From assembly GCA_945905835.1 (NCBI GenBank), contig CAMDQJ010000010.1, positions 1 to 53,244 on the forward strand: DNA of 53,244 nt, written 5' to 3'. A program made the translations under genes and the position numbers. Below, in pieces: positions 19,167 to 53,244 of this stretch. A model generated the notes under the pieces. That model did no database searches, had not been told where the DNA came from, and saw only the letters and a list, made by a program, of their open reading frames with translations. Origin of the DNA: Asaia bogorensis (lineage in GTDB: Bacteria > Pseudomonadota > Alphaproteobacteria > Reyranellales > Reyranellaceae). Positions within the stretch are counted from its first letter, which is position 1; every line of letters starts with the position of its first letter.

Positions 19167-20234
19167 TCACTCCGCCGCAATGGCGTCCTGGACGAACTTC
19201 TTCTTGTCGAAGTCGTCGGCGACCTTGAGGTCGTTGCCGATCAGCTGCTCGATGTCGATCTTGGCGTATTCCATGACGCCCATGTCGCCCAGCGCCTTCT
19301 GCACCTTGGGCCCGAACAAGCCGATCTCCTTGAGGATCGGCACGATGCGGGTGAACAGGCGCGAGCGGAACGACTGCATGGCGCCGGAGTTGTAGGCGTA
19401 CTCCATCAGCTTATCGACCGGCAGGCCCGAGCGCATCCAGACCTCGGCCTGGTTGAAGCGGTCACGCATGAAGTAGAGCGCCTCGACCACGAACTCCTCG
19501 CGCTCGGCGCGCTCTGAATCGGAGAGGTGCGGATAGTATTCGCGCAGCGCCATGCGGCCGAAGGTGACGTGCCGCGCCTCGTCCTGCATGACGTAGGCGT
19601 TGACCGCGCCGGCGAGGTTGTTCTTGGCGGTGTCGCGGATGCGCTGGAAGGCAGCGAGCGCCAGTCCCTCGATCAGCACCTGCATGCCGAGATAGGTCAT
19701 GTCCCAGCGGCGATCGGTCAGCGTCTGCTCGAGAAGTTGCTTGAGCGACGGCGTGATCGGATAGGCAACCTTGAACTTCTCGTGGATCAGCCGCTTGTAG
19801 CTCTCGACGTGGCGGGCCTCGTCCATGACCTGCGTCGCGGCATAGAACTTGGCGCTTATGTCGGGCACTGTGTTGACGATCTTGGCGGTGGCGATCAGCG
19901 CGCCCTGCTCGCCGTGCATGAACTGGCAGATCGAATGGCACTGCAGGTTGAAGCGCAGCCAGTCTTTCTCCTTGTCGGTCATCTTCTCCCAGAACGGCGA
20001 GCCGTAGATCGGGATGGTCTCGTCGGCCATGCCCATCGGGTTGCCTTCGAACAGCTCCTGGCTCCAGTCGATGCGCGTGGAGGTGTCCCACTGCTGCTGC
20101 TTGCCCTTCTCGTAGAGGTTCAGCAGGTCGGACGAACCGGCGTCGTATTCCCAGTTGAAGGCAATCTCGGTGGCGCCGTCGAATTTCCAGCCGGTGGTTT
20201 CGACCGGCAGAGCGTAGATCTTCTGCGTGCTCAT
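19167..20234 (-). CDS. R2-like diiron oxygenase, paralogue 1
   Basis: Ferritin-like protein of 355 aa with the complete carboxylate-bridged diiron ligand set in R2/monooxygenase spacing: E109, E139xxH142, E189, E219xxH222. Y146 is four residues after the first His, as Tyr122 is after His118 in E. coli ribonucleotide reductase R2. It lacks R2's C-terminal tail, and no large RNR subunit is nearby. A PaaE/KshB-like reductase gene starts divergently 163 nt away, and a close paralogue lies beyond it, so an NAD(P)H-driven oxygenase is more likely than an RNR subunit. Start ATG 20234 (MSTQKIYALP). Substrate unknown. Confidence 0.82.
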   Translation of the reverse strand: MSTQKIYALPVETTGWKFDGATEIAFNWEYDAGSSDLLNLYEKGKQQQWDTSTRIDWSQELFEGNPMGMADETIPIYGSPFWEKMTDKEKDWLRFNLQCHSICQFMHGEQGALIATAKIVNTVPDISAKFYAATQVMDEARHVESYKRLIHEKFKVAYPITPSLKQLLEQTLTDRRWDMTYLGMQVLIEGLALAAFQRIRDTAKNNLAGAVNAYVMQDEARHVTFGRMALREYYPHLSDSERAEREEFVVEALYFMRDRFNQAEVWMRSGLPVDKLMEYAYNSGAMQSFRSRLFTRIVPILKEIGLFGPKVQKALGDMGVMEYAKIDIEQLIGNDLKVADDFDKKKFVQDAIAAE

Positions 20235-22038: not shown

Positions 22039-23106
22039 TCACTCCGCCGCGATCGCCTTTTCGACGAACATCTTCTTGTCGAATTCCTCGGCAACCTTGC
22101 CGTCGTTGGCCAAGACCTCGGTGACGTTGAGGTCGGCGTATTCCATCACGCCCATCTCGGCGAAGGCCTTTTTGACGCGCGGCCCCCACAGCCCGATGTC
22201 CTTGACCGTCGGCACGACGCGGCTGAACAGGCGGCCACGGAAGGAATTCATCTGCTTGGAATTGTAGTGGATCTCGTCGAGCGTCTTGGCCGGCAGGCCG
22301 AGGCGGTTCCACACTTCCGACTGGTTGAAGCGGTCGCGCATGAAATGCAGCGCCTCGACCACGAACTCCTCGCGCTCGTCGCGCTCGGCCTCCGAGAGCT
22401 GCGGGTAGTACTCGCACAGCGCCAGGCGTCCGAACGAGACGTGCCGCGCCTCGTCCTGCATGACATAGGCGTTGACCGCACCTGCGAGCGTGTTGCCCGA
22501 CTTGTCACGGATCGACTGGAAGGCGGCGAGCGCCAGGCCCTCGATCAGCACCTGCATGCCGAGATAGGTCATATCCCAGCGCCGGTCGGTCAGCGTCTGC
22601 TCGAGCAGCGTCTTCAGCGCCGGATTGATCGGGTAGGCGAGCTTGAACTTCTCGTGCAGCAGTCGCTTGTAGGCTTCGACGTGGCGCGCCTCGTCCATGA
22701 CCTGCGTTGCGGCATAGAACTTGGCGTTCATGTCGGGCACGGTGCCGACGATCTTGGCGGTGGCGATCAGCGCACCCTGCTCGCCATGCATGAACTGCGA
22801 GATCGAGTTGGCCTGGAGATGGAGCCGCAACCAGCTCTTCTCCTTGTCGTTCATCTTGTTCCAATGATCGGTGCCATAGATCGAGATCGCCTCGTCCTTG
22901 AGCTCCATCGGATTGTCGGGATTGAGTTCGAGCGACCAGTCGAGGCGCGTCGAGGCGTCCCACTGCTGCTGCTTGCCCTTCTCGTAGAGCTCGAGCAGCG
23001 GCACGGAGCCGTCGTCATATTCCCAGTTGAACTGGATGTCGGTGGCGCCGTCGAACTTCCACTCGGTCTGCTCGACGGGCAGGGCGTAGATGCGCTGCGT
23101 GGACAT
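22039..23106 (-). CDS. R2-like diiron oxygenase, paralogue 2
   Basis: 355 aa, colinear and very similar to the 19.2-kb protein from MSTQRIYALP to the closing FVEKAIAAE. The same ligands sit at the same numbers: E109, E139xxH142, E189, E219xxH222, with Y146 kept. Differences cluster in surface-like stretches (residues 60-85, 200-206, 255-290), as expected for a duplicated enzyme with altered substrate or a heteromeric partner. ATG 23106. It is convergent with the DUF1275 remnant and downstream of the response regulator gene on the same strand by 84 nt. Confidence 0.82.
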   Translation of the reverse strand: MSTQRIYALPVEQTEWKFDGATDIQFNWEYDDGSVPLLELYEKGKQQQWDASTRLDWSLELNPDNPMELKDEAISIYGTDHWNKMNDKEKSWLRLHLQANSISQFMHGEQGALIATAKIVGTVPDMNAKFYAATQVMDEARHVEAYKRLLHEKFKLAYPINPALKTLLEQTLTDRRWDMTYLGMQVLIEGLALAAFQSIRDKSGNTLAGAVNAYVMQDEARHVSFGRLALCEYYPQLSEAERDEREEFVVEALHFMRDRFNQSEVWNRLGLPAKTLDEIHYNSKQMNSFRGRLFSRVVPTVKDIGLWGPRVKKAFAEMGVMEYADLNVTEVLANDGKVAEEFDKKMFVEKAIAAE

Positions 23107-39352: not shown

Positions 39353-40373
39353 ATGACCAAGCACCTGACCCGGCGCGCCGCGCTGGCCGCCGCCGCCTTG
39401 CCCGCACTCACCATCCTGCCGTCGGGCGCCCCATCATCGGGAGGGTTGGCCCAGGCGTCCTGGCGGCCGACCCAGGGCGTGAAGATCATCGTTCCGGCGG
39501 CGCCCCCCCGGCGGCACAACCGATATCGTGGCCCGGCTGCTCGCCGCCCATCTCCAGGCCGCCTGGGGCCAGACCTGCGTGGTCGACAACAAATCCGGTG
39601 CCGGCGGCGTCATCGGTTCGGCCGAAGTGGCCAAATCGACGCCCGACGGCCATGCGATCCTCATGGGCAATATCGGCCCGCAATCCATCGCCTATTCGCT
39701 CTACCGCAACATGCCCTACAAGCCCGAGGGCCTGATCCCGGTGTCCTGCGTGCTCGCCGCGCCCAACGTGCTGGTGGTGCACCCCTCGGTGCCGGCCAAG
39801 ACCGTGCCGGAGTTCGTCGCCTGGCTGAAAGCCGAGAACGGCAAGGCCTCCTATGCCTCCTCCGGCACGGGCCAGTCGCCGCATCTGTCGGGCGCCTGGT
39901 TCCTCCAGCTCACCGGCACCAAGGCCACCCACGTGCCCTATCGCGGTGCCGCCCCGGCGCTGAACGACCTGCTCGCGGGCGTCACCCAGTATTTCTTCGA
40001 CAACCTGACGACCAGCGTCGAGTTCATGCGCGCGGGCAAGCTGCGCGCACTCGGCCTCACCTCGGCACAGCGCAACCCCATGACGCCGGACCTGGCGCCG
40101 ATCCGCGAGGCCCTGCCTGAGCTCGCGCCGTTCGACGTCTCGACCTGGTTCGGCGTGTTTTTGCCTGCCGGCACGCCCAAGCCGGTGGTCGATACGCTGA
40201 ACGCCGAGATGAAAGTCTGGCTCGATGACGCCAAGACCAAGGAGCGCTTCACCGCCATGGCGGGTTATCCTGCGTGGGGAACGCCGGCGGATTTTGACAA
40301 GTTCGTCAAAGCCCAGATCGCGCTGTGGAAAAGCGTCATCGACAAGGAAGGCCTGAAGCTCGACGTGAACTGA
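39353..40373 (+). pseudogene. TctC/Bug-family substrate-binding protein with a C7 frameshift
   Basis: Periplasmic receptor of the tripartite tricarboxylate transporter family. Frame one starts at ATG 39353 (GGGAGG upstream) with a Tat-like signal MTKHLTRRAALAAAALPA and reaches VKIIVPAAP. At the seven-C run 39503-39509 the frame breaks, and the family sequence resumes in another frame as GTTDIVARLLAAHLQAAWGQ through to EGLKLDVN, for a joined length of about 339 aa. Removing one C restores one frame. It may be a true frameshift, a slippage-switched gene or a sequence error. No tctA or tctB is nearby, as is usual for Bug receptors. Confidence 0.85.
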
Positions 40374-40376
40374 TCC

Positions 40377-40472
40377 GCTGGGGGCGCGTCACTCCAGTGA
40401 CGCGATCATGTCATGAGAAGACGCGCCACTGCGAGCGGAGTAACCTCCGCTTGGGAGTGGCGCGCCCCCAGC
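40377..40472. repeat. 96-bp inverted-repeat element, copy A
   Basis: GCTGGGGGCGCG (40377-40388) and its reverse complement at 40461-40472 are terminal arms, extendable to about 19 bp with one mismatch. Inside the left half is a hairpin CGCGTCAC-TCCA-GTGACGCG (40385-40404). The element starts 3 nt after the TctC stop, and its last base is the first of the SDR stop codon on the other strand. Copy B is at 53196, and the two differ by a compensatory T-A to C-G change in the hairpin stem. Confidence 0.8.
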
Positions 40473-41265
40473 TACATGACCTGATTCACGACGCCACCGT
40501 CGACGCGCATCGCCGCACCCGAGGTGCCCGACGCCGCTTCGCTGCAGAGATAGACGCCGAGTGCCGCCACCTCGTCGGAGGTGGTGAAGCGGCGGATCAG
40601 CGAGGTCGGCCGCATGTCGCGGAAGAACGCCGCCTCGATCTCGGCCACGGTGATGCCGGAAGATTTCGCCCTCTCCGCGCGCATGCGGTCGGTGTTCTCG
40701 GTGTGCGTTGGCCTCGGCAACAACGCGTTCACCGTCACGCCCGTTCCGGCCAGTTCCATGGCGAAGCCGTGGCTGACGCTGAGTTGGGCGGTCTTGGTCA
40801 TGCCGTAGTGGATCATCTCCTTGGGAATGTTGAGCGCCGACTCGCTCGACACGAACAGCACGCGGCCCCAGCCGCGCCTGGCCATGCCCGGCGCGTAGTG
40901 GCGCGTGAAGCGGATGCCGCTCATGACATTGACCTCGAAGAAGCGCTGCCATTCCGCGTCGTCGATCTCGAAGGCGGGCTTGCGGCCATAGATACCGAGA
41001 TTGTTCACCAGCACGTCGAGCTCGGGGACACGATCGAACACAGCCTTGGCACCCGCCGCCGTGGCGCAATCCGCCGCGATGCCGGTCACCTTGGCCTCGG
41101 GCACTGCCTCGCGCAGGCGTTTCAGCGCGGCATCGACATTGGCCTGCGTGCAGCGGTGATGACGACGCTGGCACCTTCGGCCGCGAGGCCCTTGGCCAGC
41201 GCGTAGCCGATGCCGGCGGTCGAGCCTGTGACCAGCGCGTGTTTGCCTGAGAGTCCAAGGTCCAT
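40472..41265 (-). pseudogene. SDR-family oxidoreductase with a frameshift near the N-terminus
   Basis: Classical short-chain dehydrogenase. Start ATG 41265 gives MDLGLSGKHALVTGSTAGIG (cofactor motif TGxxxGIG) up to ASVVIT. Near 41150 one base seems lost, after which the family continues in another frame as TQANVDAALKRLREAVPEAKVTG, LDVLVNNLGIYG, the catalytic Ser in VSSESAL, YGMTK (Tyr and Lys) and the end SGAAMRVDGGVVNQVM. The joined protein would be about 264 aa. The start overlaps the upstream stop by one base (TGATG). Substrate unknown. Confidence 0.85.
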
Positions 41266-52403: not shown

Positions 52404-53194
52404 CATCCGATGAGATGATCGACCTCGGCGACCGCCGTTTGCGGCTGCGCCGGCTCGAGCCCAAGCACAGCGACGGGCTGGAACGCACGGTGCTGGTTTT
52501 CCTGCACGAGGGGCTGGGCTGCATCGAGATGTGGCGCGACTTCCCCCAGAAGCTCTGCGACGCCACCATGTGCCGCGGCATCGTCTACGACCGCGCGGCC
52601 TACGGAAAATCGAGCCCGTGGCCCTACGATCCCGGCCTGCGCTACATGGAGATCGAGGCCGACGAGGTCCTGCCCAAACTGCTGGCCGCACTCGGCATCG
52701 AGGATTGCGTGCCGGTCGGCCACAGCGACGGCGGCACGATCGCCTTGAACTACGCCGCGCGCGATCCGGAAATCTTGCGCGCCGTCGTCACCATTGCCGC
52801 TCACGCCATCAATGAACCGGTCTGCGTCGCGGCCATCGTCCGGGCGCGCGAGGCCTTTGCCTCGGGCGATCTCCGCCAGCGCCTGCTGAAATATCACGGC
52901 GACAATGTCGACCGCGCCTTTCATCTGTGGTCGGACGCCTGGGTGGCACCGGGCTTCGAGCCGATGGACGCCAACGGCCGGCTGCCCGGCGTGCAGGTGC
53001 CGGTGCAGGCGATCCAGGGCGAGGACGACGACTACGGCAGCGAGCTGCAGCTCGGCATCATCGCCGGCAAGGTCGGCGGCTATTGCGAGACGCGGCTGGT
53101 GCCCGGCGCCGGCCATTCGCCGCATCTGCAGCAGGCGGCGTATGTGCTGTCCGAGATCGTGCGCTTCGTGGCGCCGCTGGCGGTAATCGACTGA
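52400..53194 (+). CDS. Alpha/beta-fold hydrolase
   Basis: 264 aa. LVFLHEGLGCIEMWRDF (HxG-like oxyanion segment), nucleophile elbow VGHSDGGTIAL (Ser in GHSDGG), a charged turn IQGEDDDYGS in the acid region and the His in PGAGHSPHL. Members include meta-cleavage hydrolases and esterases; substrate unknown. The GTG at 52400 overlaps the stop of the CzcA remnant (GTGTGA); ATG 52415 is an alternative. Copy B of the 96-bp element begins 1 nt after its stop. Confidence 0.85.
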   Translation: MTSDEMIDLGDRRLRLRRLEPKHSDGLERTVLVFLHEGLGCIEMWRDFPQKLCDATMCRGIVYDRAAYGKSSPWPYDPGLRYMEIEADEVLPKLLAALGIEDCVPVGHSDGGTIALNYAARDPEILRAVVTIAAHAINEPVCVAAIVRAREAFASGDLRQRLLKYHGDNVDRAFHLWSDAWVAPGFEPMDANGRLPGVQVPVQAIQGEDDDYGSELQLGIIAGKVGGYCETRLVPGAGHSPHLQQAAYVLSEIVRFVAPLAVID

Positions 53195-53195
53195 C

Positions 53196-53244
53196 GCTGG
53201 GGGCGCGCCACTCCAGTGGCGCGATCATGACTCACGAGAAGACG
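53196..53244. repeat. 96-bp inverted-repeat element, copy B, cut by the window end
   Basis: Begins GCTGGGGGCGCG (53196-53207), then the hairpin CGCGCCAC-TCCA-GTGGCGCG (53204-53223), and continues GATCATGACTCACGAGAAG like copy A with few changes. It lies one base after the hydrolase stop codon. The right arm is beyond the window. Confidence 0.8.

Follow-up and report, generated by a model that had tools for sequence, protein, structure and literature searches.

REPIN-like elements with non-GTAG feet beside stop codons and around RAYT transposase genes in the Reyranella group

Introduction

Two convergent genes on contig CAMDQJ010000010.1 (GenBank assembly GCA_945905835.1, named Asaia bogorensis and placed in the Reyranellaceae by GTDB) are separated by little more than one inverted-repeat element, and a second copy of this element, cut by the contig end, follows the stop codon of a third gene. 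What is this element, how did it spread and why is it found at the ends of genes? The window examined here, meaning the whole stretch of 53,244 nucleotides, had received a first-pass annotation made from its letters, in which the two copies were taken for a REP/MITE-like dispersed family acting as terminator, RNA stabiliser or protein-binding site.

The usual definition of a REP element includes a GT[AG]G tag, which is read by a RAYT transposase (PMC3686654). We consider it very probable that the two copies in the window, here called A and B, are REPINs, that is, non-autonomous elements spread in the Reyranella group by a cognate RAYT, a single-strand transposase of the HUH/Y1 type, and their position on the stop side of genes probably results from the survival of insertions. 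The observations behind this are the dispersed family and its architecture, conserved local hairpins, cognate RAYT genes enclosed by the family's ends, and sites that relatives leave empty or fill with something else.

Copies A and B and their neighbouring genes

The features of the two loci are as follows, with positions in the window.

39528 to 40373, plus strand: TctC-type receptor gene to the left of copy A, start approximate, stop TGA 40371-40373 (gene calling)
40377 to 40472, no strand: copy A, read as a complete REPIN of two inverted REP half-units, the right side extended (sequence, own-genome comparison)
40377 to 40404, plus strand: left REP half-unit, foot GCTGGGGG at 40377-40384, stem 40385-40393/40396-40404, loop CC at 40394-40395 (sequence, covariation)
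40405 to 40421, no strand: linker ATCATGTCATGAGAAGA, with TC[AT]T just inside the hairpin (sequence, flank-motif analysis)
40422 to 40472, minus strand: right REP half-unit in minus-strand reading, foot 40465-40472, stem 40456-40464/40422-40430, loop enlarged by an insert (sequence)
40431 to 40453, minus strand: 23-nt insert in the right loop, hairpin AGCGGAG-TAAC-CTCCGCT (sequence, comparison with other loci)
40472 to 41227, minus strand: short-chain dehydrogenase gene to the right of copy A, start approximate, its stop TAG 40472-40474 using the terminal base of the element (gene calling)
52415 to 53194, plus strand: alpha/beta hydrolase gene ending 1 nt before copy B (gene calling)
53196 to 53244, plus strand: copy B, left half-unit and linker, ended by the contig end where the assembly is broken in the repeat (sequence, own-genome matches)

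Copy A is 96 nt long, and the first part that it was said to have in common with copy B is indeed shared, at about 90% rather than full identity. Both copies start just 3' of a stop codon, as had been noted, A 3 nt after the TGA of the TctC gene and B 1 nt after the TGA of the hydrolase gene (53192-53194). Copy A also fills its convergent gap, apart from 3 nt between the stops that remain outside it, and at C40472, where it ends, it supplies the third base of the TAG of the opposite gene. The hairpin described earlier, with eight pairs and the loop TCCA, is present in the sequence, but this drawing leaves the closing T-A unpaired, and nine pairs with the loop CC describe it better; the compensatory difference between the copies, T-A in A and C-G in B, is real when the two are compared. 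What the earlier description lacked is the 23-nt insert in the right half of copy A, which folds as a second hairpin. Extended halves resembling this one carry the extra hairpin at the own-genome loci L009-L012 and L018, and also occur beside RAYT genes in the relatives G048 and G049. The fold energy of copy A is far below that of shuffled sequences (z -8.6), and the minimum-energy fold of copy A alone is one long hairpin. A search of the window against Rfam at gathering score returned only two tRNAs, the element matching no family. Elsewhere in the window, positions 19167-20234 and 22039-23106 hold direct copies that have diverged, with 72 to 90% identity over three stretches; they lie 2872 bp apart and are perhaps a tandem gene duplication.

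A dispersed family of paired half-units

The reading of the copies as members of a REP/MITE-like dispersed family was borne out by copy number, by stop-codon bias and by covariation. Far from the two copies being alone, BLAST against the own genome gave 39 matches that merge into 31 places, and the 19-nt terminus GCTGGGGGCGCGCSACTCC, with at most 2 mismatches, matched 69 times compared to once for a reversed control. Within the own-genome stretches fetched there are 48 element places, made up of 23 complete pairs (36 to 126 bp) and 25 halves. Seventeen of these 25 halves are at contig ends, and by our count 20 contig ends are within about 135 bp of a copy, copy B being one such break; the frequent breaks in this assembly may be explained by copies at contig ends.

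The family is widespread among relatives. The 19-nt terminus was found in 25 of 25 genomes of the same genus, with 3 to 282 matches each and the lowest counts near those of their controls, and in 16 genomes outside the genus it gave 3 matches against 2 for the control. In an even sampling of a larger group, 61 genus genomes were searched for a 27-nt half-unit; 58 of them had it, and the controls gave no match. The counts at 3 mismatches include some AT[GC]GGAGC feet. Among the public matches listed, the exact half-unit belongs mainly to entries labelled Reyranella or Reyranellaceae, Rhodospirillales, Alphaproteobacteria and Proteobacteria, with a few labelled Asaia, Enhydrobacter, Hyphomicrobiales, Chloroflexi and Rhodospirillaceae, and it was by this exact pattern that the relatives' public loci were picked from the matches listed. 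Since NCBI taxonomy places Enhydrobacter in Hyphomicrobiales incertae sedis, we term the host range the Reyranella group. The bins that hold the exact half-units L064, L098 and L099, under the names Asaia bogorensis, Hyphomicrobiales and Chloroflexi, may be misnamed or contaminated.

In each half-unit the foot, GCTGGGGGC, is followed by a stem with 8 or 9 pairs and the two-base loop CC. A full unit joins two inverted half-units through a linker about 20 nt long; among 66 pairs of 60-90 bp in relatives, 48 have a linker of 23 or 24 nt. The linker mostly starts with G(A)TC[AT]T and finishes with the mirror of the same. Such pairs account for 23 of 48 own elements and 103 of 127 elements in relatives, which is the dispersed, inverted REP pair by which REPINs are recognised. 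Variants include double-foot copies of 35-36 bp (4 own, 6 in relatives) and pairs whose loop is extended or broken, of which there are 6 in the own genome and 10 in relatives; the 'extended' halves of this tally include some that are merely broken. At L021:3151-3276 (G000 contig 14, 23950-24075) a GGACC-type unit is nested within the linker of a GCTGGGGGC-type REPIN, and at L194:1859 and L205:117 (G000 contigs 64 and 130) a shortened unit, GCTGGGGGCGCGCGACTCCAGC, has one-sided flank bases that are identical on both contigs.

What is conserved is the local hairpin

Selection on structure had been suggested from a single compensatory pair, and covariation across the family bears this out for the two local hairpins, the pairing counts giving no such support to a single long hairpin. 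Among 60 distinct half-units, 15 cells were changed on both sides compared to 3.5 in shuffles (0 of 500 as high), with a covariation score of 0.114 against 0.044 for shuffled and at most 0.025 for slid versions; half-units with arms pairing at fewer than 6 of 9 positions (14 of 63 own, 9 of 227 in relatives) had been dropped beforehand, which favours pairing. Twelve of the 15 double changes are in one column pair, from C-G to G-C, so that few events may underlie the covariation. At the variable stem position the local hairpin is paired in 194 of 200 halves (25 of 26 own, 169 of 174 in relatives), whereas the two halves of an element are compatible with pairing to each other in only 59 of 100 elements (6 of 13 own, 53 of 87 in relatives). 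One long hairpin as the conserved fold is therefore rejected: variants break it in 41 of 100 elements, and it is the local hairpins that persist and are conserved. A RAYT would be expected to bind them as folded single-stranded DNA, and this would account for the covariation with no role in RNA.

RAYT genes between the same ends

In the own assembly, whose last-numbered contig is 3.1 kb, neither PF01797 nor a protein query found a RAYT. With a last-numbered contig of that size and so many contig ends near copies, a short RAYT contig could be missing, and loss is indistinguishable from non-assembly. The RAYT protein query matched in 33 of 61 genus genomes. In G024 the RAYT gene is contained in a 612-bp element that bears the two ends of the family (L060:1404-2015). 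Of two RAYT proteins compared with NCBIfam NF047646, both pass its cut-off of 80 (89 and 92 bits), and the one searched against the PDB has TnpArep, 4er8, as its best match (E 2.8e-8).

Across 36 RAYT loci examined, the flanking feet fall into sets. One clade, the cognate one, is flanked by feet beginning GCTGG or GCCGG at 12 of 12 loci, so that a RAYT flanked by the same repeat, as in known REPIN/RAYT systems, was found at every examined member; this count covers examined RAYTs, and G070:C136 and G061:C3:14381, in the same identity range, are outside it. In a second group 3 genes are flanked by AT[GC]GGAGC feet, and in a third 17 have flanking feet that end in GGACC. On the RAYT tree a single branch separates each set from the rest, and 0 of 200 label shuffles were equally good, with 4 rows unlabelled and the mixed-foot cases G065a and G013 labelled with their clade after the identities had been seen. 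When labels are taken from the foot core only and G075 is omitted, the number of changes needed on the tree rises from 1 to 2, and 0 of 500 shuffles were as low.

In the E. coli RAYT the stretch W94-R104 contacts the guide (PMC6006769, PMC8266576). The segment aligned with it reads WQ...WDR in 12 of 12 proteins of the first clade, WQ...WDT in 3 of 3 of the second, and WH (16) or WR (1) followed by FDR in the third. A strict link between residue 95 and the foot core is weakened by two cases with the foot GCTGGGACC, namely G065a, a cognate-clade protein that has Q at 95, and G013 of the third clade. As a tentative idea, less likely than not, the Reyranella group could represent a radiation of RAYT/REP pairs without the GTAG guide, in which foot and W94-R104 segment changed largely together (Q95 with GG[AG]GC, H or R with GGACC, G065a being the exception) and REPIN types compete for slots of a few bases between convergent stops.

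Copy numbers per genome have a median of 47 where a cognate RAYT is intact (n=11) compared to 15 otherwise (n=50; P=0.006). Against this stand several copy-rich genomes without a cognate RAYT match (among them G006 with 183 copies, G062 with 115 and G005 with 108) and three copy-poor genomes with one (G074 with 3, G043 with 10 and G051 with 15).

Orthologous sites are empty or differently filled

Three sites, picked because the own genome has a copy there, were followed in 29 relatives fetched, with both flanks present in 16 (copy A), 28 (L019) and 27 (L023) and the rest left out. None of the 16 relatives with both genes of the copy A site has copy A's element: 7 are empty, with gaps that differ from the element-free length by -2 to 1 nt, 3 have a GGACC foot (GGACC-type elements in G046 and G056, one such foot in G066) and 6 have other sequence. 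At L023, 10 of 27 relatives are empty (gaps of at most 8 nt; in G045 the stops are 3 nt apart), 12 hold REP feet of four types and 5 hold other sequence; the foot patterns give single-foot matches, with at least 2 pattern matches in 6 of the 12 occupied genomes and the others judged from their sequences. The 28 relatives at L019 mostly have other repeats or unrelated sequence, with 4 clear REPINs (G012, G020, G063 and G070), these being the 4 trusted of 6 pattern-positive genomes. The REPINs of L281, L285, L311 and L315 (G012, G020, G070 and G063) are of another type, with the foot GGAGC before a GCGGGCC hairpin, and in several species the gap (L277-L296, the L019 orthologues) holds other intergenic repeats, among them one with GCGGGCTCTCGCGCCTC and GCCGCCCGCC and one with inverted copies of CTGAGCGAAGCGAAGGA.

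A short motif recurs in the bases around the elements. Outside the element, TC[AT]T is present within 8 nt at only 20 of 67 ends in the own genome and 89 of 227 in relatives, though at greater distance its rates are 2 and 4%. Just inside the hairpin it is found in 38 of 60 own cases and 189 of 226 in relatives. Published RAYTs cut at CT, one also at CA, beside the REP (PMC8266576), and TC[AT]T may be the corresponding cleavage site here. The external motif as a one-sided target is unsupported, as it occurs at both ends of 21 of 102 pairs in relatives (17.7 expected) and of 2 of 23 own pairs (2.4 expected).

An ordinary MITE with terminal inverted repeats, moved by a DDE transposase, is highly improbable, for although terminal inverted repeats around a short non-coding body would suit it, and the own copy L023 has GCTAAG on both sides (similar bases being present there already at related empty sites), the family's ends enclose a Y1/HUH transposase, each end is itself a conserved hairpin, and abutting direct repeats of at least 3 bp, the mark of a regular target duplication, occur at only 1 of 23 own pairs and at 6 of 103 in relatives.

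Why the elements are found after stop codons

The bias towards stop codons is not confined to copies A and B. Stop-facing ends are at a median distance of 2 nt from the stop codon in the own genome (n=48 edges, 40 within 10 nt) and 6 nt in relatives (n=152, 99 within 10 nt), and at 19 of 200 such ends the first base of the element is the last base of the stop codon, as is likewise described for GTAG REPs (PMC3733652). With genes called by a home-made caller and background gaps taken from the same element-bearing loci, the 118 element-bearing gaps with both sides known are convergent in 46, co-directional in 67 and divergent in 5 cases, compared to 91, 509 and 140 of 740 element-free gaps. Only 3 of 175 elements are within predicted genes.

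Insertion could be directed to stop codons or nearby bases, beyond any filtering by selection, and we regard this as unlikely. It would be consistent with co-directional gaps, where elements lie closer to the stop than they would under uniform placement (within 3 nt, 5 of 8 own against 1.2 expected and 18 of 59 in relatives against 13.3, P 0.05; within 10 nt in relatives, 36 of 59 against 25.8, P 0.0002), but the same bias would follow from avoiding the promoter of the next gene. In convergent gaps placement is as uniform predicts (8 of 10 against 7.9 own, 22 of 36 against 22.0 in relatives), and the flank motif is TC[AT]T rather than a stop codon. The L023 slot has at least 2 REP feet in 6 of 27 genomes, which could suggest a preferred target, but under this one counting rule the excess over other convergent gaps in the same stretches is small (1 of 10); co-directional gaps are at 2 of 94 and divergent gaps at 0 of 104.

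A second alternative, distinctly unlikely in our view, is that the hairpins are kept at gene ends for an action in RNA, as bidirectional terminators or 3'-end stabilisers, mobility being only their origin. The short stop distances, the avoidance of divergent gaps and the very stable RNA fold computed for copy A would all be consistent with this. However, the proposed terminator did not hold up: a scan of 40300-40550 around copy A found no GC-rich hairpin with a T-tract, and a T-tract follows only 5 of 295 ends in the family, so an intrinsic terminator is rejected on its sequence. The same gap is also empty in several relatives and occupied by other REP types in others, and the long hairpin that would be expected of copy A is the one broken by variants as the local hairpins persist.

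Under the preferred explanation, spread by a cognate RAYT, the transposase would bind the folded hairpin and foot on single-stranded DNA, would cut near TC[AT]T outside and inside each hairpin, comparable to the CT or CA sites of other RAYTs, and would then move the whole unit. The earlier suggestion of a protein-binding site would thus be right in the sense of a transposase substrate. Insertions would survive mainly where neither gene nor promoter is struck, a few bases after stops and above all between convergent genes. Survival mainly at such harmless spots would account for the proximity to stop codons, the first G of the element sometimes being the last base of a TAG stop.

Relation to known systems

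The Reyranella set is a REPIN/RAYT system with non-GTAG feet. With the REPIN/RAYT systems (REPtrons) described for Pseudomonas, Stenotrophomonas and E. coli it shares the inverted REP pair, a RAYT between REPs, many dispersed copies, the RAYT motifs HUH, W and Y---NP, and CT or CA near the hairpin (PMC3116915, PMC3686654, PMC8266576). The REPtron foot described there is GT[AG]G, whereas the Reyranella foot is GG[AG]GC or GGACC, with a CC loop and, in extended copies, a further loop hairpin. The GTAG and CGTC superfamilies are also alike in their dimers, their preference for convergent and unidirectional gaps, their ends giving a TAG stop and, as reported for Bradyrhizobium, their loop variants with self-complementary inserts (PMC3733652), but neither of their tags marks the Reyranella elements, in which GT[AG]G runs across the element start at 11 of 295 ends and is within the foot in 2 of 295, and CGTC is in 0 of 295 feet.

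TIRYTs (TIRtrons) likewise have a RAYT-like gene between inverted repeats and a dispersed family, some self-complementary, but the common motif GGGGWSAS given for them does not, by eye, fit the Reyranella elements (PMC3733652). A later classification (PMC6006769) assigned 20 of 26 TIRYTs to a subclass that has an additional C-terminal domain; the Reyranella proteins, which at about 181 aa end soon after the Y motif, appear to be without that domain. TnpAY1 subclasses 2.4 and 2.7, as described in PMC6006769, have NHVH, WQ and YIxxNP-like motifs in common with the Reyranella proteins and 'double foot' REPs comparable to the copies of 35-36 bp, but their genes are flanked by GT[AG]G REPs, unlike those of Reyranella.

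In the open-access literature searched, with subscription journals mostly outside that scope, we found no earlier account of a Reyranella REPIN/RAYT system. It is a genus-wide system with other tags, in which several foot types are found beside related RAYTs and orthologous empty sites are at hand, so that guide recognition and the choice of insertion site can be compared across natural RAYT/REP pairs. If the proposed radiation without GTAG is true, its pairs would form a natural series from which guide recognition by a single-strand transposase could be read.
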